A stretch of DNA of 43,624 bases from a virus, in the IMG/VR virus record IMGVR_UViG_3300018411_000036, positions 1 to 43,624 of that record; one strand, written 5' to 3'. Shown piece by piece: positions 22,010 to 35,885 of the stretch. The notes beneath the pieces are model-generated. The model worked only from the letters and a program-made list of their open reading frames with translations, was not told the DNA's origin and made no database searches. Every line of letters begins with the position of its first letter. Position 1 is the stretch's first letter. The translations under genes were made by a program, and so were the position numbers.

Positions 22010-22069
22010 ATGGGATAACATCGGCTTTGCAAGCCGAGATTGAGAGTTCGATTCTCTCACGGTCCACCA
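21996..22069 (+). tRNA. tRNA-Ala(TGC), overlapping the endonuclease gene
   Basis: Acceptor GGGCTGT/ACGGTCC, D arm TTAGTTAAATGGGATAACA, anticodon arm TCGGC-TTTGCAA-GCCGA, T loop TTCGATT, CCA encoded. The first 14 bases are the 3' end of the HNH reading frame. Confidence 0.9.
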
Positions 22070-22084
22070 TATATTTGGAGTGCA

Positions 22085-22112
22085 TTCGGTTCGATCCCGT
22101 TTACCTCCACCA
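22085..22112 (+). pseudogene. 3' half of the split tRNA-Ala
   Basis: T arm CGG-TTCGATC-CCG, then TACCTCC, A, CCA. Complements the 5' half at 21493. Confidence 0.7.
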
Positions 22113-22132
22113 ATATACAAGAGGTGAGAACA

Positions 22133-22375
22133 ATGACACCAACAACAGAGATCATCGTCGACTTGGCACAACAGGTTGAAATCGGCGATCCGATTGATTT
22201 TGGTATGCTTAACATCAGTGAGCACGACGCGTATAACTTAATGGCAACGGGGCTGATGGAGCAGTATCATGCAACAGAACCTGCAAACCGCGAAGCAATG
22301 TTGCTTGCTGTTACAACGAAGCTGATTGTTGAGAACTTTGTGTTAAACCTCAAAATGCGACAGAATATGGGCTGA
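22133..22375 (+). CDS. small conserved phage protein (DPIDFGMLNI...VENFVLNLKM type)
   Basis: An 80-residue protein starting MTPTTEIIVDLAQQVEIGDP, with IDFGMLNISEHDAYNLMA and TKLIVENFVLNLKM, matching a small conserved protein of T4-like phages of unknown function. ATG 22133 follows GAGGTGAG. Its last seven bases are the 5' acceptor strand of tRNA-Ala at 22369. Confidence 0.7.
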   Translation: MTPTTEIIVDLAQQVEIGDPIDFGMLNISEHDAYNLMATGLMEQYHATEPANREAMLLAVTTKLIVENFVLNLKMRQNMG

Positions 22376-22443
22376 TAGTGATAACGGGAGCACAGTGGCT
22401 TTGCAAGCCTCGGGTCGGGGTTCGATTCCCCGTCGGTCCACCA
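22369..22443 (+). tRNA. tRNA-Ala(TGC), overlapping a protein gene
   Basis: Acceptor GGGCTGA/TCGGTCC (complete pairing), anticodon loop TTTGCAA, T loop TTCGATT, CCA encoded. The 5' strand includes the stop codon of the preceding gene. Confidence 0.85.
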
Positions 22444-22453
22444 TATACTGCGT

Positions 22454-22493
22454 TATAAATAAGTGTTGACATTTGGGTAAAATAATGTATACT
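22454..22493 (+). promoter_or_regulatory. late and early promoters in tandem
   Basis: TATAAATA at 22454-22461, then TTGACA 22466-22471, 16-bp spacer, TATACT 22488-22493. Confidence 0.75.
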
Positions 22494-22521
22494 GCCCATA
22501 ACAACACTAAGGATATACACC

Positions 22522-22707
22522 ATGGAACTGTTGAGGGAAATGCTTGCTCGAACCTGTAGGTTCGATTTACTGGAGCAATATGCAACTGACGAAGGGTGGG
22601 AGCAACGGTTTGAGATGATTGTTGAAAACGAACAATCTTCTGACATTACTGCATATGTGCAGAGAATGACCGCGCGCCTCAACGACAGGAGTGACTATGC
22701 TGTTTGA
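22522..22707 (+). CDS. hypothetical small protein
   Basis: A 61-residue helical protein (MELLREMLARTCRFDLLEQY onward) read from the promoters just upstream. Overlaps the next gene. No family recognised. Confidence 0.6.
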   Translation: MELLREMLARTCRFDLLEQYATDEGWEQRFEMIVENEQSSDITAYVQRMTARLNDRSDYAV

Positions 22708-23050
22708 AAGCCCGCAAAAATTTCTAGCTGCGATACGCAACACAGTGGAAAACAGAGAGTTTGCTAAACACGCTGCAGCAGATTTGCTAGGTCTCCATTA
22801 CATCATTGATGCACAGTACAAAAAGCCAAATTTTAGCACGATCAAGGCGATGGCTATGGAGTCCGATGAAGAGACACGAGCACGAATTAACAAAGTCCTG
22901 GCAGGAATTGATAAAGCAGAGTTGGAAAAATTTATTGCAGCATTCGGTAACCACAACTATGGCCAGGTCCGTGACATGGTGATACGAGCCGAACGCAGGC
23001 TGCAGTCTGTATACGATGAGTTTGAGTTGTTCAAACACCTTCAACAATAA
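22697..23050 (+). CDS. hypothetical phage protein
   Basis: Protein of 117 residues from ATG 22697, with AGGAG upstream (a GTG at 22691 is an alternative). Helical, with FAKHAAADLLGLHYIIDAQY and a C-terminal FELFKHLQQ. Possibly related to small S-adenosylmethionine-decarboxylase-linked phage proteins in style only; no function assigned. Confidence 0.6.
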   Translation: MLFESPQKFLAAIRNTVENREFAKHAAADLLGLHYIIDAQYKKPNFSTIKAMAMESDEETRARINKVLAGIDKAELEKFIAAFGNHNYGQVRDMVIRAERRLQSVYDEFELFKHLQQ

Positions 23051-23059
23051 ACAAACACC

Positions 23060-23100
23060 GCCCCGGTGGTAAATGCAAATCTGGTACAGCTACAACGTCA
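23060..23100 (+). pseudogene. 5' half of a split tRNA-Leu
   Basis: The first 35 or so bases match tRNA-Leu(CAG) at 18331 exactly, then the sequence diverges in the anticodon arm. The matching 3' half is at 23675. Confidence 0.8.
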
Positions 23101-23137
23101 GTACATAAATAGATGTACACAACACTTTGGAGCTGAT

Positions 23138-23596
23138 ATGTTTAAAAAATACACAAGGATATCCGACAAAGAATTGCAAGAAGTTGTTCGAGAGTGTGCA
23201 ACGTATTCGGAAGTTGTTAGGAAATTAGGACGAACGCCAACAGGTAGTAACATATCCAATATTTCGTTTCGGTGTAAAAAGCTAGGGATTGACGTATCAC
23301 ACATGACTGGCAAATCTCATGCACGTGGTAAGGAATCGAAGCGCAGGTTTGAACCACAAGATTGGCTTACAGTTCGCGATCCAAGTTCACGACGTGTTGA
23401 ACCACGAAATCTGCGAGACGCGTTGCTGGCGGTGGGTGTTCCATATGAATGTTGTAAATGCGGTATTAGCGAGTGGTGTAACAATCGATTAGTACTTGAA
23501 GTTGATCATATCAACGACATGTATTGGGACAACAGAGCAGAGAATCTACAGCTGTTGTGTCCTAACTGCCATTCGCAAAAAACTTTGGGAGCGTGA
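23138..23596 (+). CDS. HNH homing endonuclease in a tRNA-Leu gene
   Basis: Protein of 152 residues from ATG 23138 (GGAG seven bases upstream). N-terminal DNA-binding-like part (SDKELQEVVRECATYSEVVR), then an HNH/zinc core: YECCKCGISEW, LVLEVDHINDMYWDNRAENL, LLCPNCHSQK. A hairpin GTACAT/ATGTAC with AAATAG in the loop lies upstream. The stop codon lies inside the 5' end of an intact tRNA-Leu(GAG). Confidence 0.88.
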   Translation: MFKKYTRISDKELQEVVRECATYSEVVRKLGRTPTGSNISNISFRCKKLGIDVSHMTGKSHARGKESKRRFEPQDWLTVRDPSSRRVEPRNLRDALLAVGVPYECCKCGISEWCNNRLVLEVDHINDMYWDNRAENLQLLCPNCHSQKTLGA

Positions 23597-23667
23597 CGGG
23601 AATATTTGGTATACCTAGCTGAATGAGAGTCAGCTGAATGTGGGTTCGAGTCCCACCGCTCCTACCA
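23587..23667 (+). tRNA. tRNA-Leu(GAG), overlapping the endonuclease gene
   Basis: Acceptor GGGAGCG/CGCTCCT, Leu D arm, anticodon arm GCTGA-ATGAGAG-TCAGC, T loop TTCGAGT, CCA encoded. First ten bases are shared with the HNH gene. Confidence 0.85.
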
Positions 23668-23674
23668 ATATTTA

Positions 23675-23708
23675 ACTTTTGCGGGTTCGAATCCCGCTCG
23701 GGGCACCA
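23675..23708 (+). pseudogene. 3' half of the split tRNA-Leu
   Basis: T arm GCGGG-TTCGAAT-CCCGC and the acceptor plus CCA of a tRNA-Leu(CAG), nearly identical to the 3' end at 18384-18414. Confidence 0.8.
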
Positions 23709-23718
23709 CAACATCTAC

Positions 23719-23803
23719 ACCCTCGTGACTTAGGCGAATTGGTACAGCCAGTCGGCTTAAACCCGACGTCTTTTTGCAGGTTCGAATCCTGTCGGGGGTA
23801 CCA
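23719..23803 (+). tRNA. tRNA-Leu(TAA)
   Basis: Acceptor ACCCTCG/CGGGGGT, anticodon arm GTCGG-CTTAAAC-CCGAC, T loop TTCGAAT, CCA encoded. Confidence 0.88.
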
Positions 23804-23978
23804 GCAACGGTTTTTGACGCAGGATAGACGGCAGAATTGAGTCCCAGCAAGCGCTAACCTGTTGGCTGACAGGTGACAAAATAGTATGCGCTTGCAGGTT
23901 GCCAAAAACTCTTCTGTATGAGACAATCTGGCGAGGCTGAAAAGATAGCCAGGCGCCTGCGTTGATATTTTTACAATG
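23804..23978 (+). ncRNA. structured spacer RNA
   Basis: GTTTTTG/CAAAAAC and, inside it, GCAAGCGC/GCGCTTGC make a nested long hairpin directly after tRNA-Leu, similar in design to the cassettes at 19.4-21.4 kb. No gene. Confidence 0.5.
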
Positions 23979-24056
23979 CCCCTCTGGACAAATTTGGTAA
24001 AGTCGGCTCTCTCAAAAAGAGCAGTTCTCTCGGTTCGAATCCGAGGAGGGGTACCA
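23979..24056 (+). tRNA. tRNA-Leu(CAA)
   Basis: Acceptor GCCCCTC/GAGGGGT, anticodon arm GCTCT-CTCAAAA-AGAGC, T loop TTCGAAT, CCA encoded. Confidence 0.9.
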
Positions 24057-24071: not shown

Positions 24072-24578
24072 ATGATCACATCATCCGAATTGTTAGCATT
24101 TGCTTACCACCCCGTCGCGTACGAGCAACGGTTAGTCAACATCATCATTCCAGACGGCAGACAAGTTCTGCTGCTCAGCCCCAGCGAACTCGCGTCGCAC
24201 CCTCTAAACCCCACAAACGCCCCTGTTACGATTAAGATCGAGGGAATGGAGCGTTACAGCAACCAGCTGTGGGAGCAAGCTCAAGAACTTGCGTTTCGAT
24301 ACGGACACGACGGTCCTATCACCTGCCACGCGTTTATATCACCTGTAAACGGCGCCACTTTCGGTATCCATACCGATCCAGACAACGTGATCATCTATTG
24401 CGTTGAGGGAACAAAAACAATGGAGATTGGAGGCGACTTGTACCGCTTGCAGCCTGGTGAGTACGTCCACATTCCGTATGATACACCGCACCGCGCAATC
24501 AACGAGCACTCCTCTGTGATGTTGTCTTTTGGGCTCGAACGGTACTATAATGACAAAATGTCAAGCGAGGGTCGTTAA
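24072..24578 (+). CDS. cupin/JmjC-like protein, putative 2OG-Fe(II) hydroxylase
   Basis: Protein of 168 residues. Residues 85-160 carry a double-stranded beta-helix: NGATFGIHTDPDNVIIYCVE with the H-x-D pair, IGGDLYRLQPGEYVHIPYDT, then PHRAINEHSSVMLSFGLER with the distal His. This matches the iron-binding facial triad of JmjC-type hydroxylases, some of which modify ribosomal proteins and peptides. ATG 24072 is chosen because the longer frame would run through tRNA-Leu. First gene of the radical SAM operon; its stop overlaps the next start (ATGA). Substrate unknown; the Cys-His repeat protein two genes on is a candidate. Confidence 0.7.
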   Translation: MITSSELLAFAYHPVAYEQRLVNIIIPDGRQVLLLSPSELASHPLNPTNAPVTIKIEGMERYSNQLWEQAQELAFRYGHDGPITCHAFISPVNGATFGIHTDPDNVIIYCVEGTKTMEIGGDLYRLQPGEYVHIPYDTPHRAINEHSSVMLSFGLERYYNDKMSSEGR

Positions 24579-25648
24579 TGAACTGGATGTTCTATCTCAA
24601 AACCACGGAAACGTGTAACCTAAACTGCAAGCATTGTTTCACCAACGGCGTGAACGGTGCAAAAATCTATTGGGATCACCTCAAGGTTGCACAGTGGGTT
24701 GAGCACTTCGTTGATACACAGATGCACGAAGGCGACAGTCTGCATTGTGAGTTTCATGGTGGAGAACCGTTCCTTGCTGACATCAACCAGCTTCGTGGTG
24801 TTGTCGCAGCAGTCAAACCACACCACCCAAACATCACTTTCGGCATCACAACGAACCTTGTGATCAAGCTGACAGATGAGCACTTTGCGTTTATTGAGCA
24901 AGACCTCGGCAAACGAATTGGCACGTCGTGGGATCCAAAAATTCGCTTCGAGAACGACAAACAGCAAGCGTTGTGGTTGAAAAACGTCAAGACCTTGCTT
25001 GAGCGCGGCAACGTTGTTCGCCTATTCATCAGCGTCACAAAAGACACGATAGACATTGAGCCGATCATGCTGCTGTCATGGATCAAAGCGCTTGGCGTGC
25101 AGGAAGTGTCATTCGAACGGCTGACGCGAAACGGTAATGCAAACCTCCATCCAGACATCTTCCCGTCTAATGTTGAGCAGGACGCTTGGTTCTTGAAGAT
25201 GCACCAACAAAGCGAGCAGTACGACGCTCGTAGCTGGTTTGAAAACGACTTCCTCGAGACGGTCTACGCAAAATTCGAGACAGGATTCCGTTCAGGAGGC
25301 ACGTTCTGCCGTGATTGTGAGGAGAAGATTTTCACGCTGAATGCTGATGGTAAGATTTCAGGATGTCCTAACTCCGCTCCTGAGTTCTCGTATGGGACGA
25401 TTTATGACCCGCTCGATCAAATCCTCAACAGCCCAGTGCGTATAAATAACAGGGCTTGTGAAAAAAGTCGCAACCCTGTATGTTACACTTGCGAGGTTTT
25501 TCAATTTTGCGGAGGCGATTGCCACCAGCTGGCGTGGGACGGAGATATTTGCGGGGCACCGAAATCTTTGATGAAACACTTAGCAGGAGTTACAACACCG
25601 AAGCAGAAAACATGGATTATAAAGGACATTAGACATCATGCTCACTAA
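24578..25648 (+). CDS. radical SAM/SPASM protein 1
   Basis: Protein of 356 residues. N-terminal radical SAM cluster site TCNLNCKHC (Cys 13, 17, 20) and GGEP at 61-64, in a TIM-barrel-like order. C-terminal SPASM domain with many Cys: FCRDCEEK at 244/247, GCPNS at 263, CYTCEVFQFCGGDC at 302-315 and ICGAPK at 325, enough for two auxiliary 4Fe-4S clusters. SPASM enzymes modify peptides and proteins after translation (thioether, C-C, epimer formation). Directly upstream of and overlapping the gene for the CHxS-repeat protein, which makes that protein the likely substrate. Confidence 0.88.
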   Translation: MNWMFYLKTTETCNLNCKHCFTNGVNGAKIYWDHLKVAQWVEHFVDTQMHEGDSLHCEFHGGEPFLADINQLRGVVAAVKPHHPNITFGITTNLVIKLTDEHFAFIEQDLGKRIGTSWDPKIRFENDKQQALWLKNVKTLLERGNVVRLFISVTKDTIDIEPIMLLSWIKALGVQEVSFERLTRNGNANLHPDIFPSNVEQDAWFLKMHQQSEQYDARSWFENDFLETVYAKFETGFRSGGTFCRDCEEKIFTLNADGKISGCPNSAPEFSYGTIYDPLDQILNSPVRINNRACEKSRNPVCYTCEVFQFCGGDCHQLAWDGDICGAPKSLMKHLAGVTTPKQKTWIIKDIRHHAH

Positions 25649-26174
25649 CCCAATCAATAATGCAAACCTCGTTAATAGGTTTGCACAATACGTTCAGGCA
25701 ACAGCAAACAGTGGTATCAGCTGGGGGACAAACGCTGTGCCTTTTGCTGAATTTCCAGCTGGCCATTTCGGTGGCACCACAGCAGGTGCTGGTTTGTCAA
25801 TCAGCGGTCCGTCTGTCGGTGCAACAGGAACGCCTGTAACAGCAAGCACTATCTTTAACGTGTTGGTTGCAGAAACACGACTGTTTACAAACATTCGCTT
25901 GCTTCGCGCCCGCCGTAACGTTACTGGCATTGGTACTACTTACGACCAGACAGCTGTTGCGCATATGAACGTAAACCACCGCCAAGCTCTTGGTGCTACA
26001 GCAGCCCCCGGAATTGCTTCAGGGCAAACAATCACATCGAGCGGTCTGGAAACCTTCTTCAACAACCTACGTACAGCATACACCAACGCTAGAAACACTG
26101 TTGTACAAATTGATATTAACCTCTGCCACTCCAGCTGCCATGGCAGCTGCCACGGCTCACGCGCTAGGAGATAA
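25638..26174 (+). CDS. CHxS-repeat protein, probable substrate of the radical SAM system
   Basis: Protein of 178 residues. Residues 1-160 look like a folded, Gly/Ala/Thr-rich domain with no enzyme motif. The C-terminus ends CHSSCHGSCHGSRARR: three tandem Cys-His-x-Ser units (163-174) plus a basic tail. His-x-Ser and Cys-x-x-x repeats at the C-terminus of a protein beside SPASM enzymes are typical of ribosomally made, post-translationally modified peptides such as the His-Xaa-Ser systems. Whether this is a virion protein with a modified tip or a released peptide is unknown. The gene overlaps the SPASM gene by 11 bases. Confidence 0.75.
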   Translation: MLTNPINNANLVNRFAQYVQATANSGISWGTNAVPFAEFPAGHFGGTTAGAGLSISGPSVGATGTPVTASTIFNVLVAETRLFTNIRLLRARRNVTGIGTTYDQTAVAHMNVNHRQALGATAAPGIASGQTITSSGLETFFNNLRTAYTNARNTVVQIDINLCHSSCHGSCHGSRARR

Positions 26175-26175
26175 G

Positions 26176-26904
26176 ATGAAAACCGTAACGGTTACCGCCC
26201 CACTGTCGATTGATGACCTCAAGTTGTTTTATCTTGAGGACAAGAATGTTCTGTACATGATTGACTATGAGAAATCAACCCTAAAAGAGGGCAAGCTGAT
26301 TACATATCTGTCGAACCTCGATATTCCTGCTGACATCGACCTGTCCAATACTTGCGGACAGGATGTAGCACAACTGCTCGCTGCATACTTTCAGTCTGTA
26401 ACATTCTGCAACATTAACACACTCGAGCATTTGGCAATCGAAACGGTGTTGACAGCAGCTGGTGTTGTTACAACAGACAATCCTGCCGTTCAGCAAGTTG
26501 TTGATCAGCACAACGAACTGGTAATGAAGTGGGTGAAGATTCTACAAAGCCTGTCTGTGTACAACATGTCGATTGTTAAGGATGACAGCTTCAAGGAGTT
26601 CGCCAACTCATTCCCTGTTAATGACACGAAGTCGATCAATGGAATCAACTGGATCAGTCTGCTTAAACATCCACAGCTGTACCTGATTTTCTCAAAGATC
26701 GACCAGTCAACATTGGAATTCTATCCATACTATTTCAACGAGTACCTGTTCAAGTCTCACAGTCTGTATCACTACTGGGCGAACGAGAACAATCCATTGT
26801 TCTTGCTGACATACGGAATCGCAGAAGGGTTGATAAATACCGAAGAATATATTGACATGCGTAAGCAGTCAATTGAGGAGATTGATCGTGCTGCATCTAT
26901 TTAA
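26176..26904 (+). CDS. hypothetical protein of the radical SAM operon (A)
   Basis: Protein of 242 residues from ATG 26176, one base after the repeat protein's stop, with AGGAG upstream. Begins MKTVTVTAPLSIDDLKLFYL; the rest is mostly helical with a tyrosine-rich YYFNEYLFKSHSLYHYWANE near residue 195. No known domain. Position suggests a scaffold, recognition or partner protein for the repeat protein or its enzymes. Confidence 0.65.
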   Translation: MKTVTVTAPLSIDDLKLFYLEDKNVLYMIDYEKSTLKEGKLITYLSNLDIPADIDLSNTCGQDVAQLLAAYFQSVTFCNINTLEHLAIETVLTAAGVVTTDNPAVQQVVDQHNELVMKWVKILQSLSVYNMSIVKDDSFKEFANSFPVNDTKSINGINWISLLKHPQLYLIFSKIDQSTLEFYPYYFNEYLFKSHSLYHYWANENNPLFLLTYGIAEGLINTEEYIDMRKQSIEEIDRAASI

Positions 26905-27937
26905 ACGCGTATACGTCACAACCGACGCTGGTCTTGATATCACAAACAACCGCATTGTCATTTCGGCAGAGCACGGGTTCCCTATGTACCACCCTCTTGA
27001 GGAGTTCAAAGACGGCGGCAAGTTGCTCGGATACGGTCCTAACCTCGAGGGTGTGTACGAATCTATGCCTCGCGTGTCGAACTTCCCGCAGCTGATTGAA
27101 TTTCTGTACAATTATGACGATCGCGTTATCGTCTATGTTGACGGTCAGCAGTTTATGGAGTTCATGGCTCTGTGGCACAAAGCACTATTCAAGAACCCAA
27201 CGTCCTCGAGCACGTGGGACATTTTGAATGCTTACATTCGCAAACACGATCTGCAGCGCAACTGGAAGTTGAATGAATTCAGCGCAGGCGTTGCGTACAC
27301 GAATGTTAACGCCACAAGTTATGATGTTGTGTTCCAGCGTGCTGAAAAGCACGATCTGTCAGTTCTGGTGCAGTCTGCATATCAAGACCTCAGCTTTGAT
27401 ATCCTAATTGCTAACTACATCAACAACCCCACGAAGTTCACTGCACCAATGGCAGCCTGTATGCAGACTGTGTTGTTGAGAACCGTTGACGAAACGTTGA
27501 TTGAAGTCAAGCAAACATTCTACAAAGGACACACAAAGTCAGTGTTCCCGCGGTTTTCTGTTGGTTTGGAGTTTTTCGGCCAGTCTTCTCTGTACGTAGA
27601 AGAAGCGGTTGGTCAAGTGGGTTCAAAATCAAGCGTTGATATTCTGGGTGCTACTCAACAAGATGTGGATACCGCTATCCATATCGCAACAACGTTGTAT
27701 AGAGAGTGGGATCAGTTCAAAGACGATGCGACAATCATTTCTCGGCTCGACTTGGTCAACATCGTTCGCAACCCTCTAACACCGTCTGTCATTGACGCTG
27801 TATTGGAAATGGAGCGCTCAACTGGTTCCAACAACAGAATTTACGCGCCAACTGATGAAGAAAAATTGAACACGTTCTTCATTGATCTAGTTTTAGCAAC
27901 GCCGACTACAGAAATGGCAAAATATGAGATTGTCTGA
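26888..27937 (+). CDS. hypothetical protein of the radical SAM operon (B)
   Basis: Protein of 349 residues from a GTG with GAGGAG upstream, overlapping the previous gene by 17 bases. N-terminal beta-rich region (FKRVYVTTDAGLDITNNRIV, GYGPNLEGVYESM), then long helices. No metal or nucleotide site is recognised. Overlaps the oxygenase gene downstream. Role unknown; may bind the substrate or form part of the structure that is modified. Confidence 0.65.
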   Translation: MLHLFKRVYVTTDAGLDITNNRIVISAEHGFPMYHPLEEFKDGGKLLGYGPNLEGVYESMPRVSNFPQLIEFLYNYDDRVIVYVDGQQFMEFMALWHKALFKNPTSSSTWDILNAYIRKHDLQRNWKLNEFSAGVAYTNVNATSYDVVFQRAEKHDLSVLVQSAYQDLSFDILIANYINNPTKFTAPMAACMQTVLLRTVDETLIEVKQTFYKGHTKSVFPRFSVGLEFFGQSSLYVEEAVGQVGSKSSVDILGATQQDVDTAIHIATTLYREWDQFKDDATIISRLDLVNIVRNPLTPSVIDAVLEMERSTGSNNRIYAPTDEEKLNTFFIDLVLATPTTEMAKYEIV

Positions 27938-28580
27938 TGATTTGAAAGATCACAACGCTTTTTTTGATACTGGGTACTTTGTTGGAACAATAGATCCGTA
28001 TGTGATGAAGGCATTGTGGAGAGAAATCGAAATAACAAACTGGATTGAAGACCCTGATAACATATACAAGAAAATACCACACTGGTACTGCACTAACCTA
28101 ACAACGCCAATTGGTCAACTAGAGGCGTTTAGAGGTAAGTACGAGAAAGAGTTTGCAGAGCGAATTATGGAGAGAGCACCCCGATCGTTGATGGATGTTG
28201 CTAGTAAATTTTTTGCTTTTGATGAGAGATTTCAGTTCTTCAAGCGGTACTTTAACGATATTGAATTGACGAGTGTAGATTTGTGGAATGGTGCAGAAAA
28301 CATCGACTACCACTTTGACACAATCAACGGGTTCGATCTAGCGGTGTTGATTTACCTAACCGATCAACCGCAGTGGGATCCAAAATGGGGCGGTTCTTTG
28401 CGAATGAAGCGTGAATATCCACATCTTGGACTGCCAACTACAGATGAGATCGTCTATCCCACTTCTGGAACGTACGTACTATTTAACAACAAGACGCCGT
28501 TGTTGACACACAAGGTTGAGCCGTTGACAACCACCGACGTTAACAGGTATACTTTCACTTTCAACTATAACTTAAAATGA
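27924..28580 (+). CDS. 2OG-Fe(II) oxygenase A
   Basis: Protein of 218 residues with the 2-oxoglutarate/iron facial triad: H130-x-D132 in NIDYHFDTINGFDL, H196 in TPLLTHKVEP, and R208 in NRYTFTF for 2-oxoglutarate. The block WNGAEN ... YLTD ... W...WGGSL is shared with the C-terminal half of the protein at 29575, so the two are paralogues. Predicted to hydroxylate an amino acid side chain, in keeping with prolyl-hydroxylase-like phage enzymes. ATGA overlap with the next gene. Confidence 0.8.
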   Translation: MRLSDDLKDHNAFFDTGYFVGTIDPYVMKALWREIEITNWIEDPDNIYKKIPHWYCTNLTTPIGQLEAFRGKYEKEFAERIMERAPRSLMDVASKFFAFDERFQFFKRYFNDIELTSVDLWNGAENIDYHFDTINGFDLAVLIYLTDQPQWDPKWGGSLRMKREYPHLGLPTTDEIVYPTSGTYVLFNNKTPLLTHKVEPLTTTDVNRYTFTFNYNLK

Positions 28581-29578
28581 CGATAGCCCAACACATGCTG
28601 GACAATCACGATAAGCGCCCAGCCGCGGGTGAAATCATCGTGATCTTGTTCGAACAGTGCAATTTGTCGTGCTCGTTTTGTCACCAGAAACACGATGACA
28701 AGACAGGAATGGACTCGATCGTTGATAAGGTCGATCTTGTCAGACGAACAATTCCTATATTACGGAAGAAAGGCAAAACGCAATTTTCCGTTCACGTGAT
28801 GGGCGGCGAATTGTTTGCCGATGATATTCCTGACGAATTGTTTGAAAAGTACGACCGGTTTATTGATGATGTAAGAGAACTTCGGTCTGATGGCACTCAG
28901 GTTGACATATACTTCGTGTCAAACCTGATTTTTGATAACAGAGCAAGAATGGAGACATTTCTTGATAAACACCAAGACGTTCATCTTCTAACAAGTTTTG
29001 ACTTCGCTGGAAGGTTCAATGAAGCAAACAAGAAGATTTACTTTGACAACGTTCTCCATTTCGAAGACAGGATCGACAGCGTCAATGTGATCCTGTCAAA
29101 ACAGAACATTGAAAGGATGATCAAACAGCGCGATCCTGTGTTTGATTACCTGTATGACAAGGTTGAAGTGGTGTTTGATTACTATGGCCCTAAAGGTGCG
29201 AATGATCCTCACTTGCCAACAGATGTTCAGTTGAGACAGGGGCTGATTTACTTGTTCGACAACTACCCGAAAGTAATACCGGTAGCAAACTTCACATCTA
29301 AAACCAAGACTGTGATGAGCTGCATGGACACGTATACTGCCATGCCTAACGGCAAGGTTGGCGGATGTGGGATGTTTGAAAACACAACCAAAGTGATACC
29401 AATCAAACGTTCAATCGAACAAAAGTGGTTCGACAGCTACAATTGTTTTGAATGCGAACACTTTCAACGGTGCTCTTTCGGTTGCTTTATGAGCAACCAC
29501 ATAAATGATATGAGAACCCAGCAACAGTGCTGGCTAAAAGAAGTATATGACTACGTAGACGCAAAGGAAAAGGCATGA
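28577..29578 (+). CDS. radical SAM protein 2
   Basis: Protein of 333 residues. Cluster site QCNLSCSFC (Cys 28, 32, 35), MGGEL near 74, and a C-terminal Cys-rich region: SCMDTYTAMPNGKVGGCGMF, then NCFECEHFQRCSFGCFMSNH and a final Cys in QQQCWLKE. A SPASM-like or twitch-type auxiliary cluster is likely. Lies between the two paralogous oxygenases and overlaps both. Confidence 0.85.
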   Translation: MTIAQHMLDNHDKRPAAGEIIVILFEQCNLSCSFCHQKHDDKTGMDSIVDKVDLVRRTIPILRKKGKTQFSVHVMGGELFADDIPDELFEKYDRFIDDVRELRSDGTQVDIYFVSNLIFDNRARMETFLDKHQDVHLLTSFDFAGRFNEANKKIYFDNVLHFEDRIDSVNVILSKQNIERMIKQRDPVFDYLYDKVEVVFDYYGPKGANDPHLPTDVQLRQGLIYLFDNYPKVIPVANFTSKTKTVMSCMDTYTAMPNGKVGGCGMFENTTKVIPIKRSIEQKWFDSYNCFECEHFQRCSFGCFMSNHINDMRTQQQCWLKEVYDYVDAKEKA

Positions 29579-30684
29579 CAAAGCGACAAGTGTCTCTGAT
29601 TGAAGAGAACAAAGATTTTCTCGCCGATGAGGCGGTAACCTATTACAAAACAAAGTATCCAGACGTTGAATTTGACAAAGAATTCTGCCGCCGTGATGTT
29701 CATATGATTTGCGACATTATCTGCGGTGACCTTAACCTCGAAGGATTCGTCTCGTCAATCACGTTTGCTGCACCTGATGTAGAACATAACTATTATGCTC
29801 TGAACCGCTACAAAGGGTCGTTTCTTTGCCTAAGACAACAGAATGTTGTAACCTTTGATGTTGTTGCACACATTATCGGTATGATCAAAAAGGTTGCACA
29901 AAGTCAGCCTGTAGAGCCTGTGCTAGGCAAGCACGAACAGACGTTTGACCCTCAACGAAATCTTACTGCGGAACAGATTGCGGAGATTGGCGTGCTCGGC
30001 ACACTGATCGCAGGTAATGTTGGCAAAGGTAGGCCTCGTACTCAATACACTGTCATGATGGAGGATTACTTTGATAAGGGGTTCATCCACACAACGATCC
30101 CATCAGACATATACTCACGACTGTGGGAACAAGTGCACAAAACAAACTGGGTCGATGCTGTTCGGACAACATACAAGAAAAAACCCGACTGGTATTACGA
30201 GAACGAGAAGCACTATCTTGATCCTATGCTGCTTGATCGTCCAACACACGAGAAGCTATTTGCGAAAGAAACAATTTCGAACACACCGCCTGATCTGATC
30301 AAAATTGCTGAGGACCTGCTGAAAGATCCAATGTTTGATTACATCAAATTGTTCCGTCCGCCTAACCCTGTTGTGAAATGTGTGCACTTCTGGAACGGCA
30401 GCGAGAATAGCCCTCACCACAACGATGGTGTTGATGGCACAGACCTGATGATCTTCTGTTACCTGACCGACGAAGAAGGATGGGATGAGGAGTGGGGCGG
30501 TTACATCAACATGCTGAAGGAAGTTGGTGGTCAGTTCTACCACACAAAGAACATTATGCCGATTGACGGCACGATGGTTTGTGTCAACAACTCTGCACCA
30601 ATCTTCAAGCACGGCATTCGTGATTTAAAACGTAAAGACAAAAACCGCTACACATTTATTTTCCACTATACGTGGACGTTCTAA
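29575..30684 (+). CDS. 2OG-Fe(II) oxygenase B with extra N-terminal domain
   Basis: Protein of 369 residues. Residues 1-150 are a separate domain of unknown fold (CRRDVHMICDIICGDLNLEG and TFDVVAHIIGMIKK). Residues 160-369 are a 2OG-Fe(II) oxygenase: H282-x-D284 in NSPHHNDGVDGTDL, H346 in PIFKHGIRD, R358 in NRYTFIF. Paralogue of the gene at 27924. Two oxygenases plus a cupin suggest several hydroxylations of one or more substrates. Confidence 0.8.
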   Translation: MTKRQVSLIEENKDFLADEAVTYYKTKYPDVEFDKEFCRRDVHMICDIICGDLNLEGFVSSITFAAPDVEHNYYALNRYKGSFLCLRQQNVVTFDVVAHIIGMIKKVAQSQPVEPVLGKHEQTFDPQRNLTAEQIAEIGVLGTLIAGNVGKGRPRTQYTVMMEDYFDKGFIHTTIPSDIYSRLWEQVHKTNWVDAVRTTYKKKPDWYYENEKHYLDPMLLDRPTHEKLFAKETISNTPPDLIKIAEDLLKDPMFDYIKLFRPPNPVVKCVHFWNGSENSPHHNDGVDGTDLMIFCYLTDEEGWDEEWGGYINMLKEVGGQFYHTKNIMPIDGTMVCVNNSAPIFKHGIRDLKRKDKNRYTFIFHYTWTF

Positions 30685-30708
30685 CCCCACAGCTGTGAAG
30701 GGCTGACA

Positions 30709-31779
30709 ATGGATCTAATCATCAAGCCGACAGAGCGGTGCAACTTCAAGTGCACGTTCTGTTCGAGCACAAAGATTACTGACGACAACACCGTCGAACT
30801 TGATCACGAGTACATCTCCCAGTTCCTGAAAAGGTTTCCGGAGACGAAAACGATCATCGTCAACGGTGGCGATCCACTGATGATGCCTCCTGAATATTAC
30901 TGGAAGATCATCGAGCACCTTGACCTGATTGGGTCTAATGCTACGATCTCTTTCACATCCAACCTGTGGCCGTTTTACAAGAACCCTGAAAAGTGGGTTG
31001 ATCTGTTCAACCACCCACGGATGGGGATTGGCACATCATTTCAGTATGGTGGTGGGCGACTGAAAGGCGATCTAACGGAGTTTTCTGAAGAGGACTTCTG
31101 GAAAGTGTCCGACATGATGCTCGAACGTGTCGGTTATCGCCCCGACTTCATTTCTGTGATTACAGAAGAAAATGCTGATAGAGCGATTGAAAACGTGTTG
31201 TTGGCACAGAAAATGGGCGTGGTTTGCAAGCTAAATTACGCATTTTCGTCCGGTCCTCCGGTGAAATTTCGTGGAATTACGATGGGTCAGCAGGGCAAAC
31301 CATACATGCTCGCTGACATCTATGAAATCTATGTGGAGATCTGGAAGCGTGGGCTAACTGAGTGGGAATACAACACCAAACAGATGGTCAAACGGCTTCG
31401 TGGTGAAGGAACAACATGTCCGCAGAACCGCAAATGCGACGGAGGGATCCGGACGCTGCAACCATCTGGTGATTATTACAGCTGTGGTGCTTTTGGTGAT
31501 GATCGGATATACTCAATCGACTTCAAGCAAGAGATGTCTGGCGCGAAGGTGTTCCCGATCCGCAACGAGATGGAGCTGCAGTCACTGAAGCAGTCGTGCT
31601 TCACGTGCCCAATGTTTGAGATTTGTAACGGTTGTCGTAAAACGATCAAAGACTTGAAAGATCACGGAATGGTTGAGAAACACTGCTCAAAGATGAAAAC
31701 ACTTGCCGCTGACATCATTGAAGCAAACGGTCTGATAGGTGTGCTTCTTCCAACGCCTTATGTCAACGAACAAAAATGA
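30709..31779 (+). CDS. radical SAM/SPASM protein 3
   Basis: Protein of 356 residues. ERCNFKCTFC (Cys 11, 15, 18), NGGDP near 51, then a C-terminal SPASM-like region: GTTCPQNRKCDGG, YSCGAFGD, SCFTCPMFEICNGCRK and KHCSKM. A 24-base gap after the oxygenase gene is the largest internal gap of the operon. ATGA overlap with the next gene. Confidence 0.87.
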   Translation: MDLIIKPTERCNFKCTFCSSTKITDDNTVELDHEYISQFLKRFPETKTIIVNGGDPLMMPPEYYWKIIEHLDLIGSNATISFTSNLWPFYKNPEKWVDLFNHPRMGIGTSFQYGGGRLKGDLTEFSEEDFWKVSDMMLERVGYRPDFISVITEENADRAIENVLLAQKMGVVCKLNYAFSSGPPVKFRGITMGQQGKPYMLADIYEIYVEIWKRGLTEWEYNTKQMVKRLRGEGTTCPQNRKCDGGIRTLQPSGDYYSCGAFGDDRIYSIDFKQEMSGAKVFPIRNEMELQSLKQSCFTCPMFEICNGCRKTIKDLKDHGMVEKHCSKMKTLAADIIEANGLIGVLLPTPYVNEQK

Positions 31780-32264
31780 TGTCATACAACTTCAAAAACG
31801 ACAACGGTCGCATCAATCAGGGGAGACCAGGGCTGAATGTGTTGATACCCCCCACAGATCCATTATTTAACACACAAGTAGAGAGCGGTGTGCAAAATTG
31901 TGTTTTTGCATTAGGTTGTAAAGGGTATATAACTTTGGGCAGCTGTGAAGGACATCCTCCAGAAGCGGATCCAACAAACGACACCTATTGGCACATCAGC
32001 ATAGCGTATGATAGTGATAGAGTGTTTGAGGTGTTTCAGCGGGCGATGAAGTGGTCATTCGTCTATGTCAAACACGACAGCACTTATCCGGCTGACCTAG
32101 ATTGGTTCAACAGAGTGTTTGAGCAGCGGTTCAACCAGTTTAACATTCTAACAATATACACGTCATCCAACACCGTCAAACGCAACCAGCTTGCAAAACG
32201 GTGTTTTGCAAAACATTGCCTTGCTAGAATCAACAAATTGCCCCTAGCATCACAAATAACATGA
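31776..32264 (+). CDS. SCEGH-motif protein
   Basis: Protein of 162 residues containing GCKGYITLGSCEGHPPEAD near residue 48; an S-C-E/Q-G-H motif occurs in small uncharacterised bacterial proteins, where the Cys and His could be catalytic or bind metal. The C-terminus is basic with further Cys and His (KRCFAKHCLARIN). Overlaps radical SAM genes on both sides, so it probably acts with them. Confidence 0.6.
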   Translation: MMSYNFKNDNGRINQGRPGLNVLIPPTDPLFNTQVESGVQNCVFALGCKGYITLGSCEGHPPEADPTNDTYWHISIAYDSDRVFEVFQRAMKWSFVYVKHDSTYPADLDWFNRVFEQRFNQFNILTIYTSSNTVKRNQLAKRCFAKHCLARINKLPLASQIT

Positions 32265-33172
32265 ATATTTCCATCAACCCGAGTTACTTCTGCAACTTCC
32301 GCTGTGACTTTTGCTACTTAACAGAACAACAACTTGGCGACACGAGCAAGATTTCACTTGAGCGTTTGGATGACTTGTTGGGTCAGGTCAAACAGCATAC
32401 TGACATCGCATGGGTTGATCTGTATGGTGGTGAAATTGGTGCGCTGAAGCGTGATTATTTTGATGGTCTCCGACACACAATCCGTCGTCATTACCACGGC
32501 AAGATCAGCGTTATCACGAACTTCTCAATGCTGCATACAGGGTTCTTTGAGGATGACTTCGTTCTCAGCGTCAGTTATGACTTTGAGGCGCGTGAGAAAT
32601 CTGATCGTGTGTTCCAAAACATGCTGCAAAGCCCTGTGCCAATCGCTGTATTGATCCTCGCAAGTCCAAAAGTGCTGGCAACGGACGTCAACTACATGAT
32701 CACAATGCTGAATATGTGCACATCTGTGACAAGCGTTGAGATCAAGCCGTACAGCACAAACCAAGCGAACAGTCACAATGTCACACATAAGGACTTTGAG
32801 CAGTTCGTGATGAAATGGATTGACAGTCCTGTTGACAAGCGTTTCCGGTTCATCAATGAGGACAAAATCAATGTGTGCTTAGATGGAGAGTACAACGCGT
32901 TCAGCGACGATCACGTCTACATCACACCGAATGGTAAATTTGGTGTGTTAGAGTTTGACCTCAATGACCGTGAGTTCTTTCTTGAATTAGACAGTTGGAA
33001 CGACTATATAATGTGGACGGAGAAAGAAAAGAACACAATCAGCAACATATGCAAAAAATGTGAGTATTTCGGTCACTGTTTAACAGAGCACTATCGCCCT
33101 GTTTATGACCTAACAAATTCGTGTAACGGCTACAAAGGACTACTGAACTGGTATGCAAGAGTGGAAAATTAG
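32261..33172 (+). CDS. radical SAM protein 4
   Basis: Protein of 303 residues. YFCNFRCDFC (Cys 11, 15, 18), YGGE near 53, and a short C-terminal Cys set: NICKKCEYFGHCLTEHYRP then NSCNGYKG. The auxiliary region is smaller than in proteins 1 and 3. Overlaps the next gene by 20 bases. Confidence 0.85.
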   Translation: MNISINPSYFCNFRCDFCYLTEQQLGDTSKISLERLDDLLGQVKQHTDIAWVDLYGGEIGALKRDYFDGLRHTIRRHYHGKISVITNFSMLHTGFFEDDFVLSVSYDFEAREKSDRVFQNMLQSPVPIAVLILASPKVLATDVNYMITMLNMCTSVTSVEIKPYSTNQANSHNVTHKDFEQFVMKWIDSPVDKRFRFINEDKINVCLDGEYNAFSDDHVYITPNGKFGVLEFDLNDREFFLELDSWNDYIMWTEKEKNTISNICKKCEYFGHCLTEHYRPVYDLTNSCNGYKGLLNWYARVEN

Positions 33173-33572
33173 ACAAGATGTGTTCCACAGATTGAACACA
33201 GAACACGACGACGACCTGAAAACAAAAGAAGTGACATTCACTGACGAGATCGTTCGCGATGCTGTCCGGTACTTCACTGATAGAAACATTGGGTGGGTGT
33301 ATCCAAGCAAGAGTTATATGGTCGGGATATGCTACGCAAAGTGGCTGTCGGATGTGTGGGGCGGCAACCCGTACGATTACCTAGATGACCCCGAGTTGCT
33401 TCACAAAAACGATCCGTACTTCGTTCCTTATGAGGACGATAAGGAAACGTATGACGCAATCCTGTCGCAAATCAACGGATGGGATTTTGCGATGGAAACA
33501 GGGCTTGTGCTGGACGTTCACAAGTACTTCATAGCGGAGTTTATGCTTGAAGAAAATCCTGTTGACAAATAG
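33153..33572 (+). CDS. hypothetical protein, last gene of the radical SAM operon
   Basis: Protein of 139 residues, helical and aromatic-rich (GWVYPSKSYMVGICYAKWLS, DVWGGNPYDYLDDPELL), acidic overall. No recognised domain. The next promoter begins within its last codons. Confidence 0.6.
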   Translation: MQEWKIRQDVFHRLNTEHDDDLKTKEVTFTDEIVRDAVRYFTDRNIGWVYPSKSYMVGICYAKWLSDVWGGNPYDYLDDPELLHKNDPYFVPYEDDKETYDAILSQINGWDFAMETGLVLDVHKYFIAEFMLEENPVDK

Positions 33573-33927: not shown

Positions 33928-34112
33928 GTTGTGCATTTTAGGCTGATGGGCGGCAAACCGCCAGCAGTCTGCGTCTTCACTCAGCGACCCCCGTTGCCGC
34001 GGTGCTAAGTTGAAGTTCCAATAGGTTAACGGTAGACCAGCCGCCTTGTGGCGGAAAGTTCAGGTTCAAATCCTGGTTAGTGTTTATGAAGCGTCAGCCT
34101 AAAATGCACAAC
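33928..34112 (+). ncRNA. inverted-repeat-bounded RNA 3 containing a tRNA-like domain
   Basis: GTTGTGCATTTTAGGCTGA pairs with TCAGCCTAAAATGCACAAC (19 bp perfect). Inside, 34020-34083 has a canonical D arm (TAGGTTAACGGTAGACC), a 5-bp arm CCGCC-TTGT-GGCGG where the anticodon arm should be, a 5-nt variable region AAAGT and T arm TCAGG-TTCAAAT-CCTGG. There is no 7-nt anticodon loop and no CCA. Confidence 0.55.
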
Positions 34113-34117
34113 ACCTG

Positions 34118-34146
34118 TTGACATCTAACGAAAGTTGATGTACAAT
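34118..34146 (+). promoter_or_regulatory. sigma-70-type promoter
   Basis: TTGACA 34118-34123, 17-bp spacer, TACAAT 34141-34146. Confidence 0.75.
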
Positions 34147-34172
34147 GATTTGGACGGTAGTGTAAATTTCTG

Positions 34173-34211
34173 TTGACTGATTGGTCACTTTGATGTACAC
34201 TACTATAAATA
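34173..34211 (+). promoter_or_regulatory. early promoter with overlapping late promoter
   Basis: TTGACT 34173-34178, 17-bp spacer, TACACT 34196-34201; TATAAATA follows at 34204-34211. Confidence 0.7.
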
Positions 34212-34261
34212 GATTGACAAACGGTGCATGGGGCACCAAACGAAACAAAGGAAGAATTGAA

Positions 34262-34408
34262 ATGACACGTTTTGAACGCAAACATATGATGGAGCAGGGC
34301 TCACGCTTTACAAGCGTCGGGACAGGCTTCGTGCGTTCAGAGTGTGGCTTCAATAACTCCGATCGTATTAGCCAGATCAAGGCCTCTGTGGAGGGCTGTA
34401 CAGGATAA
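34262..34408 (+). CDS. 48-residue hypothetical protein
   Basis: MTRFERKHMMEQGSRFTSVG onward, with AAAGGAAGAATTGA as ribosome site, its own early and late promoters and a terminator 40 bases later. Short, basic and Ser/Gly-rich; no homologue recognised. The complete transcription unit argues that it is expressed. Confidence 0.6.
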   Translation: MTRFERKHMMEQGSRFTSVGTGFVRSECGFNNSDRISQIKASVEGCTG

Positions 34409-34445
34409 AAGCGCAAGCTAAAACTGAAACAGCAAACCCCCAAAG

Positions 34446-34475
34446 AGGCCTGAGATGAAAATCCAGGCCTTTTTG
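34446..34475 (+). terminator. intrinsic terminator
   Basis: AGGCCTG (34446-34452) pairs with CAGGCCT (34464-34470), followed by TTTTG. It ends the small-RNA and 48-residue gene region. Confidence 0.85.
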
Positions 34476-34718
34476 TTGGTCTGAAAGAAAGTAGGTTACG
34501 AAAATCGGTAGTCACATAAAACGAACACGAAAGTGGTAGCAGAGACCTAGGTCTAGTTCGCCCACTATAAACAAAATCGATGAGGGTCGCCCCTCAAAGA
34601 TGCGACAAACACGCTAGGGGGTTCTGGAGAGGGAAACCTCAATAGACAAGCCAACGATGTGTTGGCACATTTTTACAGAGCATTGGCAACAGTGTTCTGC
34701 AAAAATGTTAGATTACAC
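34476..34718 (+). other. noncoding spacer with hairpins
   Basis: No gene seen. GCCAAC/GTTGGC near 34652 and ACATTTTT-CAGA with TCTG-AAAAATGT near 34668-34710 form hairpins. Confidence 0.4.
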
Positions 34719-34793
34719 GGAGGATTATCCTGGCTGGGCTGGGCGCTGTCTTGAAAACAGATGGATCGGTGATGAGCCGGTTGGAGTTCGAAA
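34719..34793 (+). pseudogene. truncated tRNA-Ser(TGA)
   Basis: Has a GGAGGAT acceptor strand, D region, anticodon arm GCTGT-CTTGAAA-ACAG (TGA), a class II variable arm and the start of the T arm (TTGGAG-TTCGAA), then breaks off. An HNH gene and an intact tRNA-Ser(TGA) follow. Confidence 0.7.
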
Positions 34794-34810
34794 ACTTTTT
34801 GTGGTCGAAC

Positions 34811-34842
34811 TATAAATAATACATGCTGAGGAGGTGTGTATG
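34811..34842 (+). promoter_or_regulatory. late promoter and start-site hairpin of the HNH gene
   Basis: TATAAATA 34811-34818. ATACA and TGTAT flank GAGGAGG and can pair, covering the ribosome site and the ATG at 34840. Confidence 0.55.
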
Positions 34843-35253
34843 ATTAAAATGTGTTCCGCTTGCGGCAACGAAAAACATTTGTTTGAGTTTCGCAAAGACA
34901 AAAATCAAAAAGACGGCGTTCAGTCACGCTGTAAGGTTTGTGCGCGAGCAGCTATAAACGCCGCATATGAAACCAAATATGGCGAGAAAACACGAGCACG
35001 TAATCAAAAACGAGCGAGAATAGTGCTAGATAACCTAAAAGAATGTAGAGAAAACAGCGTTTGTGCGTGCTGTGGTGAGGATTGTGCTGCGTGTCTGGAC
35101 TTTCATCACACAGACCCGAGCACAAAATCGTTTTCTATAAGCAAGGCCGGAAACCGTAGTTGGGAGGCAGTACTTGCTGAAATCAAAAAATGTGTTGTTG
35201 TGTGCAAAAACTGCCACAGCAAGATACACAATGGGGTTTTGACGTTATTGTAA
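34840..35253 (+). CDS. HNH homing endonuclease next to tRNA-Ser
   Basis: Protein of 137 residues. Zinc finger MCSACGNEKHLFEFRKD ... RCKVCARAA at the start; HNH core VCACCGEDCAACLDFHHTDP, then WEAVLAEIKKCVVVCKNCHS KIH. ATG 34840 fits GAGGAGG better than the upstream GTG. Its stop is one base before an intact tRNA-Ser(TGA), and a truncated tRNA-Ser(TGA) lies upstream. Confidence 0.88.
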   Translation: MIKMCSACGNEKHLFEFRKDKNQKDGVQSRCKVCARAAINAAYETKYGEKTRARNQKRARIVLDNLKECRENSVCACCGEDCAACLDFHHTDPSTKSFSISKAGNRSWEAVLAEIKKCVVVCKNCHSKIHNGVLTLL

Positions 35254-35254
35254 T

Positions 35255-35345
35255 GGAAGGTCTACCGTATTGGCGAGCGGCACTGCCTTGAAAGCAGTTT
35301 GATCCAGAAATGGGTTTGGGGGTTCAAATCCGTCACCTTCCGCCA
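35255..35345 (+). tRNA. tRNA-Ser(TGA)
   Basis: Class II; acceptor GGAAGGT/ACCTTCC, anticodon arm ACTGC-CTTGAAA-GCAGT, T loop TTCAAAT, CCA encoded. Confidence 0.93.
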
Positions 35346-35355
35346 TATTTTCTGT

Positions 35356-35432
35356 TGGGGTGAGATGCGACGGGAAGCATACTGGACTTTGAATCCAGGT
35401 CTTAGTCGGTTCGAATCCGACCACCTCTGCCA
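35356..35432 (+). tRNA. tRNA-Gln(TTG)
   Basis: Anticodon arm CTGGA-CTTTGAA-TCCAG, acceptor GGGGTG/CACCTC, T loop TTCGAAT, CCA encoded. Confidence 0.85.
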
Positions 35433-35433
35433 C

Positions 35434-35519
35434 GGAAGATCAAGCTGACCGGGTCAGCCACTGTCTCGAAAACAGATGGATCCGCAAGGGTTGCAGTTCG
35501 ATTCTGCGTTCTTCCGCCA
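35434..35519 (+). tRNA. tRNA-Ser(CGA)
   Basis: Class II; anticodon arm CTGT-CTCGAAA-ACAG, acceptor GGAAGA/TCTTCC, T loop TTCGATT, CCA encoded. Confidence 0.92.
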
Positions 35520-35529
35520 TATTTTCTGT

Positions 35530-35606
35530 TGGAGATTCGCCAAGTTGGTTAAGGCATCGGATTTTGATTCCGACATTCATAGGTTCGAATCCTATATCTC
35601 CTGCCA
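35530..35606 (+). tRNA. tRNA-Gln(TTG), second copy
   Basis: Anticodon arm CGGA-TTTTGAT-TCCG, acceptor GGAGAT/ATCTCC, T loop TTCGAAT, CCA encoded. Sequence differs from the copy at 35356. Confidence 0.85.
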
Positions 35607-35613
35607 AAATAAT

Positions 35614-35715
35614 CCACTGCAGGCTTGGGCGCCCGGGACCGCATGCACCCCGAAGAGACGGTTCGATTCCGTCCGAGATGGTTTGCCTGGGTTCGATTCC
35701 TGGGGCAGTGGGCCA
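35614..35715 (+). tRNA. tRNA-like gene with two T-arm motifs
   Basis: Outer acceptor CCACTGC/GCAGTGG plus G-CCA and T arm CTGGG-TTCGATT-CCTGG. An internal GACGG-TTCGATT-CCGTC also has T-arm form; if read as an anticodon arm it would be CGA. Similar layout to 17851-17973. Confidence 0.4.
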
Positions 35716-35726
35716 AACAATTTAAT

Positions 35727-35802
35727 GCTGCTGTAGCTGATGTGGTCATAGCGGTGGACTGAAAATCCACAGAAACAGGTTCGATCCCTGTCGGCAGCGC
35801 CA
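35727..35802 (+). tRNA. tRNA-Phe(GAA)
   Basis: Acceptor GCTGCTG/CGGCAGC, anticodon arm GTGGA-CTGAAAA-TCCAC, T loop TTCGATC, CCA encoded. Confidence 0.93.
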
Positions 35803-35810
35803 AAACAGAT

Positions 35811-35885
35811 GCGGGTATGGTGCTAGTGGTAACACAAGACCTTGCCAAGGTTTAGTTGAGGGTTCGATTCCCTCTACCCGCTCCA
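35811..35885 (+). tRNA. tRNA-Gly(GCC)
   Basis: Acceptor GCGGGTA/TACCCGC, anticodon loop TTGCCAA, T loop TTCGATT, CCA encoded. Confidence 0.92.

Follow-up and report, generated by a model that had tools for sequence, protein, structure and literature searches.

The 43,624-base virus record IMGVR_UViG_3300018411_000036, referred to here as the window (the whole stretch of DNA that was analysed), carries at positions 24072–33572 a cassette of twelve closely packed genes, all on the + strand. Its products are a cupin, four radical S-adenosylmethionine (SAM) proteins (rSAM1 to rSAM4), two 2-oxoglutarate (2OG)-Fe(II) oxygenases, four uncharacterised proteins and a 178-aa protein (TAIL) that ends in a Cys-His tag. 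A preliminary description of this DNA, made from the sequence alone, counted eleven genes, a number that is corrected here; it also listed four CxxxCxxC radical SAM sites (P0002, P0007, P0009 and P0011), three H-x-D...H iron-oxygenase sets (P0001, P0006 and P0008) and a 178-residue protein with three terminal CHxS units, all of which were recovered, the last reading CHSS, CHGS and CHGS followed by RARR. The tag, and its linkage to radical SAM genes in phages, predatory bacteria and megaplasmids, is the subject of this report.

Conservation of the tag and the cassette in phages

When 50,697 phage records were searched by tblastn with the tagged protein alone no match was found, because only the tag is conserved; relatives were instead reached through rSAM1 and, after that, through a DNA pattern of the tag. 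The rSAM1 search of the phage records gave eight matching records, seven of which represent six isolate jumbo phages (Burkholderia phages SURPRISE13, FLC6 and FLC8, Sinorhizobium phage Phosso, Agrobacterium phage Atu_ph07 and Pseudomonas phage DT01), with rSAM1 identities of 40–49%. At the five isolate loci examined, a cupin gene lies 5' of rSAM1, and the gene 3' of it encodes a ‘hypothetical protein’ of 178–306 aa that ends in the tag (5/5). Scanning IMG/VR with rSAM1 gave 79 loci, five of which stop inside or soon after rSAM1; in all 74 testable loci a tag-ended open reading frame (ORF), usually the next one, was found downstream of rSAM1. This figure of 100% is unbiased, because the loci were chosen by homology to rSAM1 and not by the tag. 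A linked, conserved candidate substrate with repeated core residues, one of the marks of radical SAM/SPASM peptide maturation in general, is therefore present at 74/74 IMG/VR and 5/5 isolate loci.

The pattern across loci is CHxSCHx[SN]CHx[SN]RxRR-stop at the C-terminus of the tagged ORF, and its C, H and R positions are invariant in 81/81 loci obtained through rSAM1, whilst outside the tag the proteins are often just 27–55% identical to that of the window. From composition, the chance of the spaced C3H3R3 tag is ~1e-18 per C-terminus, and a reversed tag pattern, used as a control, had 0 matches across all 23 phage records; the tag is thus not a product of chance. The DNA-pattern scan added at least 119 further stretches and revealed a second family of tagged proteins, encoded as tandem pairs of ~127 aa with an LRTFDK-like sequence. 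In 20 records no rSAM gene was at first seen next to the tag; 19 of them have rSAM genes elsewhere on the contig, the single exception being an 18-kb fragment. The preliminary description had proposed that repeat-protein homologues without rSAM neighbours would speak against its interpretation; across these records the tag and the enzymes were instead found together. Its claim that the repeat C-terminus is the target of several enzymes stands as far as this linkage (74/74) is concerned, the modification itself being something that we infer.

Several tagged proteins, encoded at separate loci, occur in some phages, as expected if the tag is a recognised module. On a 151-kb contig (G021) one tagged gene belongs to the cassette and another two lie 18 kb away, so that a single set of enzymes probably acts for several proteins that have only the tag in common. 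IMGVR_UViG_3300028797_000096 (L116) has a four-repeat form of the tag (CHSNCHSNCHSNCHTNRSRR) and, on the same strand, seven or more rSAM-like genes.

Iterated profiles run on six-frame ORFs gave a conserved cassette order of cupin, rSAM1, tagged protein, U4, U5, rSAM2, rSAM3, rSAM4 and U12, in which the position of the 2OG gene varies among loci. Among the 41 loci having 10 kb on either side (full loci), all carry rSAM1, the tagged protein and U4; rSAM2 was found in 40, the cupin and U5 in 39 each, rSAM3 and rSAM4 in 37 each, and 35 have one or more 2OG genes. The isolate phages with U12 are those that also have U4 and rSAM1. Between the rSAM genes of the cassettes of the Burkholderia phages (L002 and L006), at ~18.3–19.6 kb, there are two dihydrofolate reductase-like genes, whose products are possibly reductases of the same pathway.

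The fold of the tagged protein was predicted with AlphaFold2 (pLDDT 89.5), giving an N-terminal domain with values mostly >93, built from a helix, strands, and two long helices and strands, and a terminal tag that is disordered (55–67). The U4 model reached a pLDDT of 93.3. Foldseek comparison of the TAIL and U4 models with the PDB gave no match at E below 0.001, and PDB profile searches with TAIL, U4, U5 and U12 returned chance matches only. All structural matches of TAIL are to viral proteins without a name, among them its Atu_ph07 counterpart and three longer proteins that contain the fold in Myoviridae sp. ctijX18 (A0A8S5USJ7, A0A8S5USJ8 and A0A8S5USV2; 504–660 aa).

Genes of the window cassette and their surroundings

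Table 1. Features of the cassette in the window.
Feature	Position	Strand	Remarks
Cupin / JmjC_2-like putative Fe(II) oxygenase (P0001)	24072–24578	+	Cupin_2 2.3e-11; JmjC_2 1.4e-4
Radical SAM/SPASM protein 1 (rSAM1, P0002)	24578–25648	+	CNLNCKHC; class nearest the tagged gene
Tagged protein (TAIL, P0003), 178 aa	25638–26174	+	Folded N-domain and C-terminal tag
C-terminal tag CHSSCHGSCHGSRARR	26124–26171	+	Presumed modification site; C/H/R invariance
U4, conserved uncharacterised protein	26176–26904	+	Start ATG 26176; phrog_20767 (function unknown); candidate substrate-binding or scaffold factor
U5, conserved uncharacterised protein	26888–27937	+	Most likely start GTG 26888
2OG-Fe(II) oxygenase 1 (P0006)	27924–28580	+	2OG-FeII_Oxy_3 5.3e-10, 40.6 bits (cut-off 27)
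Radical SAM protein 2 (rSAM2, P0007)	28577–29578	+	CNLSCSFC; phrog_1802 2.8e-41
2OG-Fe(II) oxygenase 2 (P0008), N-terminal extension	29575–30684	+	2OG-FeII_Oxy_4 0.0076; HxD...H...R
Radical SAM protein 3 (rSAM3, P0009)	30709–31779	+	CNFKCTFC; Radical_SAM 1.8e-9, over cut-off
U10, accessory uncharacterised protein	31776–32264	+	In 12/41 full loci
Radical SAM protein 4 (rSAM4, P0011)	32261–33172	+	CNFRCDFC; phrog_1802 3.4e-29
U12, small conserved protein, last in cassette	33153–33572	+	phrog_20737 4.1e-54

The cupin start (ATG 24072) lies immediately 3' of a tRNA-Leu gene. The window holds 42 predicted tRNA genes in two arrays (16878–24056 and 34014–43130) that border the cassette, and close to these arrays is a set of four nicotinamide adenine dinucleotide and RNA-repair genes, which are RNA ligase-like (1904–2806), phosphoribosyl pyrophosphate synthetase-like (5099–5923), nicotinate phosphoribosyltransferase (5970–7604) and HAD_SAK_2 (18429–19037). 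Small ORFs with HNH-type motifs, possible homing endonucleases, lie on both sides of the cassette (23066–23596 and 34834–35253, the latter without a Pfam match).

Enzyme families and ancestry

Family membership was scored with Pfam, NCBIfam (curated cut-offs) and PHROG profiles. All four rSAM proteins match phrog_1802, and with the Pfam radical SAM model rSAM2 lies far below and rSAM1 slightly below the cut-off that rSAM3 exceeds. The SPASM-like C-terminal cysteines noted earlier were borne out for rSAM1, which scores 33.2 bits with the SPASM model TIGR04085 (cut-off 27 bits); rSAM3 falls just under (25.8), and neither rSAM2 (12.7) nor rSAM4 (no match) qualifies. P0008 scores under the 2OG-FeII_Oxy_4 cut-off and was identified from this weak score and its visible HxD...H...R residues, and P0001, in which HxD...H residues are present, reaches 21.8 bits with JmjC_2 (cut-off 22).

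Judged by profile scores, the nearest kinds are the Hxs system (HxsA, HxsB and HxsC) and the SPASM maturases of ribosomally synthesized and post-translationally modified peptides (RiPPs), and no known family fits. The top NCBIfam match of rSAM1 is the ranthipeptide maturase PapB (1.7e-14, 53.8 bits, cut-off 340), followed by CbpB (4e-14) and the CXXX-repeat maturase TIGR04115 (1.8e-8, 34.3 bits, cut-off 350); it also resembles DynA, scores 37.7 bits with HxsB (cut-off 370), weakly matches a quinohemoprotein maturase model (2.1e-8) and matches the structure 5wgg (radical SAM domain protein, 1.6e-7), which we take to be CteB. The top NCBIfam match of rSAM2 is HxsB (1.9e-4, 20.3 bits, cut-off 370), and rSAM3 matches HxsC (6.4e-7, 28.5 bits, cut-off 267.9). 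When P0003 was compared with NCBIfam, including its HxsA-type models, no match was found except a chance one at 0.15. The earlier remark that the set corresponds to no system that can be named thus holds, the Hxs, CXXX-repeat and PapB cut-offs all being widely missed.

The Hxs system resembles the cassette in that a protein with C-terminal repeats of the His-x-Ser type has genes for two or more radical SAM enzymes next to its own, and HxsB and HxsC figure among the matches just given; it differs in that the scores here are far below the curated cut-offs, that the units are Cys-His-x-Ser/Asn and end in RxRR, and that three to seven rSAMs are present, accompanied in the phage copies by the cupin, 2OG enzymes, U4, U5 and U12. 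The SPASM RiPP maturases (PapB, CbpB, CteB/SCIFF and TIGR04115) have in common with the enzymes here the CxxxCxxC core and SPASM-type cysteines, and the tag is formally a CXXX repeat; their substrate, however, is a short precursor peptide, whereas here it would be the tail of a folded protein of 120–360 aa, several rSAM classes occur together and the phage cassette has no peptidase or exporter. P0001 recalls the JmjC_2 or ribosomal-oxygenase-type 2OG enzymes in its weak JmjC_2 match and HxD...H residues but is a short single-domain cupin below the JmjC_2 cut-off. Two other roles were considered and rejected: haem c attachment at the tag, given its CX3CH spacing and that no maturation genes were seen, and tRNA modification by the rSAMs, whose resemblance is to peptide maturases.

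The same enzymes are listed in published accounts of jumbo-phage rSAM clusters (S13/SURPRISE13, FLC6, RP12/RP31 and Aeromonas phage 332-Vera). The 332-Vera structural cluster has eight rSAM genes, which have been called ‘highly unusual’ (PMC12390700), and cupin, rSAM and 2OG genes are listed for jumbo phages (PMC11898562; PMC8066314). In the accessible portions of these papers no substrate, tag, conserved cassette or link to plasmids or predators is recognised, and a literature search found no publication on the tag.

A quick maximum-likelihood tree of 108 rSAMs separates four classes, each with phage and predator enzymes, the rSAM3 class (P0009) being one such. The plasmid rSAMs form three clades, of which one joins class 3 (Shimodaira–Hasegawa approximate likelihood ratio test support 96) and one class 1 (90); details of the tree are unsure owing to long branches and the quick method. 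The rSAMs of phages, predators and plasmids nevertheless look orthologous, beyond mere similarity.

Virion neighbourhood

In most relatives the genes upstream of the cassette are virion genes, either a T4 gp8-like baseplate wedge gene together with that of a giant DUF4815 protein, or genes with structural or tail-fibre matches; eight upstream proteins were classified in this survey and all others were judged from size and position. A central spike or baseplate assembly gene lies near the cassette in DT01 (central spike) and SURPRISE13. For Atu_ph07, a proteomics report places most virion proteins in the coding sequence (CDS) clusters 31–76, 170–215 and 284–329 (PMC6102473). The tagged gene of this phage is gp170, the first CDS of the mass-spectrometry-defined cluster 170–215, the CDS numbers agreeing with RefSeq, in which the portal is gp198 and the prohead core gp204. 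The position of gp170 at the cluster edge suggests that it was detected in virions; gp171 and gp172, which are rSAM and cupin genes, also fall numerically within the cluster. SURPRISE13 (phage S13) is described as requiring host flagella for infection (PMC11898562). The preliminary description had offered a virion tip and a released effector as alternatives; the baseplate neighbours and the Atu_ph07 cluster favour the tip, although the location is one that we infer from them.

Tagged loci in Bdellovibrionota and on megaplasmids

The system reaches beyond phages, outside the view of the preliminary description. Among 84,980 bacterial and archaeal genomes the tag pattern was found in 19 stretches, eight or nine of them in Bdellovibrionota assemblies and several on phage-like contigs; three matches (Frankia, Pseudoalteromonas and Bordetella) were set aside as chance or out-of-frame. 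The Bdellovibrionota tagged loci carry rSAM1, U4, U5, other rSAMs and 2OG genes. Their flanks, where examined, are ordinary chromosomal genes (thiolase, cbb3 oxidase, copper-type ATPase, methionyl-tRNA synthetase, peroxidase and glycoside hydrolase family 14), and a prophage origin was rejected on this ground. The exact tag occurs in 5/129 and 3/144 species of two Bdellovibrionota classes, and is thus sporadic there, yet much rarer outside. Chimerism of metagenome-assembled genomes could explain single Bdellovibrionota contigs and is not a likely cause of all eight. In a Bacteriovorax assembly (L227, 11393–14792) a pair of ATP-binding cassette (ABC) exporter genes adjoins the rSAM genes and may export the tagged protein there.

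Distant rSAM1 homologues (~25% identity) were found in 138 plasmid records, 130 of them from Pseudomonas. At the annotated plasmid loci examined, three rSAM genes come after, or lie among, type IV pilus/prepilin genes, and the neighbouring gene encodes a small protein with a signal-peptide-like start (judged by eye) and a tag-like end. The megaplasmid signal-peptide protein that adjoins type IV pilus genes ends CHTACHGACHGACHGSRGWR; by source, the ends are GYCHTACHGACHGACHGSRGWR in P. aeruginosa, CYSNCHDACHGACHGSRGWR in Rhizobium leguminosarum (an unannotated record), CYSNCYSNCHGSRSWR in pMPPla107, which has Cys-Tyr units, and WCHNNHSNHSKHHHWKSW in Photobacterium, where the units are mainly His-x-Asn/Ser. 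The Pseudomonas form is present in 129 plasmid records (128 Pseudomonas), many from clinical isolates. Homologues of U4, U5, U12, the cupin and the 2OG enzymes were not detected at the plasmid loci, so that the minimal common set is the tag and about three rSAMs. Four such loci (L242, L243, L244 and L247; NZ_CP018048.1, NZ_CP125985.1, NZ_MF344570.1 and NZ_CP140867.1) each have a putatively exported tagged protein beside three rSAM genes, and the three annotated ones adjoin type IV pilus genes.

Proposed function and alternative explanations

The explanation that we prefer, at a probability of about two in three (0.68), is that the operon is a multi-enzyme RiPP-like system that modifies the C-terminal Cys-His tag, which is then shown on machines that contact the cell envelope. 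The tag is regarded as the substrate because of its strict Cys-His periodicity, the SPASM-type enzymes beside it and the unconstrained remainder of the sequence, and that it is modified is, on these grounds, very probable. Thioether or carbon–carbon cross-links are the usual products of SPASM enzymes. By analogy with these families, rSAM1, together with rSAM2 to rSAM4, would most likely act on each CHx[S/N] unit to form such cross-links at Cys, His or Ser/Asn, the cupin and the 2OG oxygenases would hydroxylate side chains, and U4, U5 and U12 may carry the substrate or assist assembly. The folded domain would present the modified, rigid or metal-binding tag on the outside of the machine: in phages as a virion part near the baseplate, on megaplasmids as an exported protein in the conjugative type IV pilus region and in Bdellovibrionota within the predation apparatus. 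In all three settings another Gram-negative cell appears to be contacted or entered. The tip role of the tagged protein is proposed tentatively from its sequence context; equally speculative is the wider idea that a chemically modified Cys-His tip is common to jumbo-phage virions, megaplasmid conjugative pili and the Bdellovibrionota predation apparatus, with different proteins bearing the same tag, orthologous rSAMs and, in phages and predators, 2OG enzymes.

Several observations weigh against envelope-contacting display of a modified tag. The window cassette sits between tRNA arrays, without adjoining baseplate genes; no PDB fold matches the tagged domain; the presence of gp170 in Atu_ph07 virions is read from the cluster edge; the plasmid version lacks the 2OG enzymes, the cupin and the U proteins, which are thus dispensable in some forms; and the predator tagged proteins have no obvious signal peptides, so that their role there is a guess.

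It is conceivable, if unlikely, that the tagged protein is a precursor whose modified C-terminus is cleaved and released as a peptide or effector acting on the host or on rivals, like sactipeptides, ranthipeptides and darobactins. The resemblance of rSAM1 to the SPASM maturases PapB, CbpB and DynA would fit such a product, as would the exporter pair beside the Bacteriovorax copy and the apparent export of the plasmid proteins. The N-terminal part, however, is a confidently predicted folded domain of 150–300 aa and no short leader, the phage cassette has neither a dedicated peptidase nor an exporter, the invariant RxRR sits at the extreme C-terminus, and the baseplate neighbours and the Atu_ph07 virion cluster point to the particle instead.

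Marginally less probable still is that the enzymes build a metal site or a protein-derived redox cofactor at the tag, in the manner of the cross-links of quinohemoproteins or of the histidines that bind iron in phage spike tips. This would account for the strictly invariant, periodic Cys and His, for the weak resemblance between rSAM1 and the quinohemoprotein maturase model and for the central-spike gene near the DT01 cassette, but no redox partner was found, and the variant units of Photobacterium and pMPPla107 depart from the Cys-His pattern. That the tag serves as a signal for assembly or packaging, on which the enzymes do not act, with rSAM and 2OG genes for nucleotide, tRNA or cofactor metabolism merely clustered nearby, recalls the tRNA arrays of the window and the dihydrofolate reductase genes of the Burkholderia phages but is highly improbable, since the tag and the same enzyme classes co-occur in phages, predators and plasmids whose tagged proteins differ entirely, and the enzymes are like peptide maturases, unlike tRNA enzymes.

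Implications

If the modification of a displayed tag is correct, virion proteins would become substrates of radical SAM and 2OG enzymes, and these enzymes would be a source of new chemistry for cross-linking or hydroxylating peptides on folded proteins. The tag also hints at what hypothetical genes may do on no fewer than 129 sequenced plasmid records (128 Pseudomonas), and, its unmodified sequence being invariant, it provides a direct handle on the system. Phages, conjugative plasmids and predatory bacteria would then have in common a post-translational chemistry for contacting or crossing the Gram-negative envelope.

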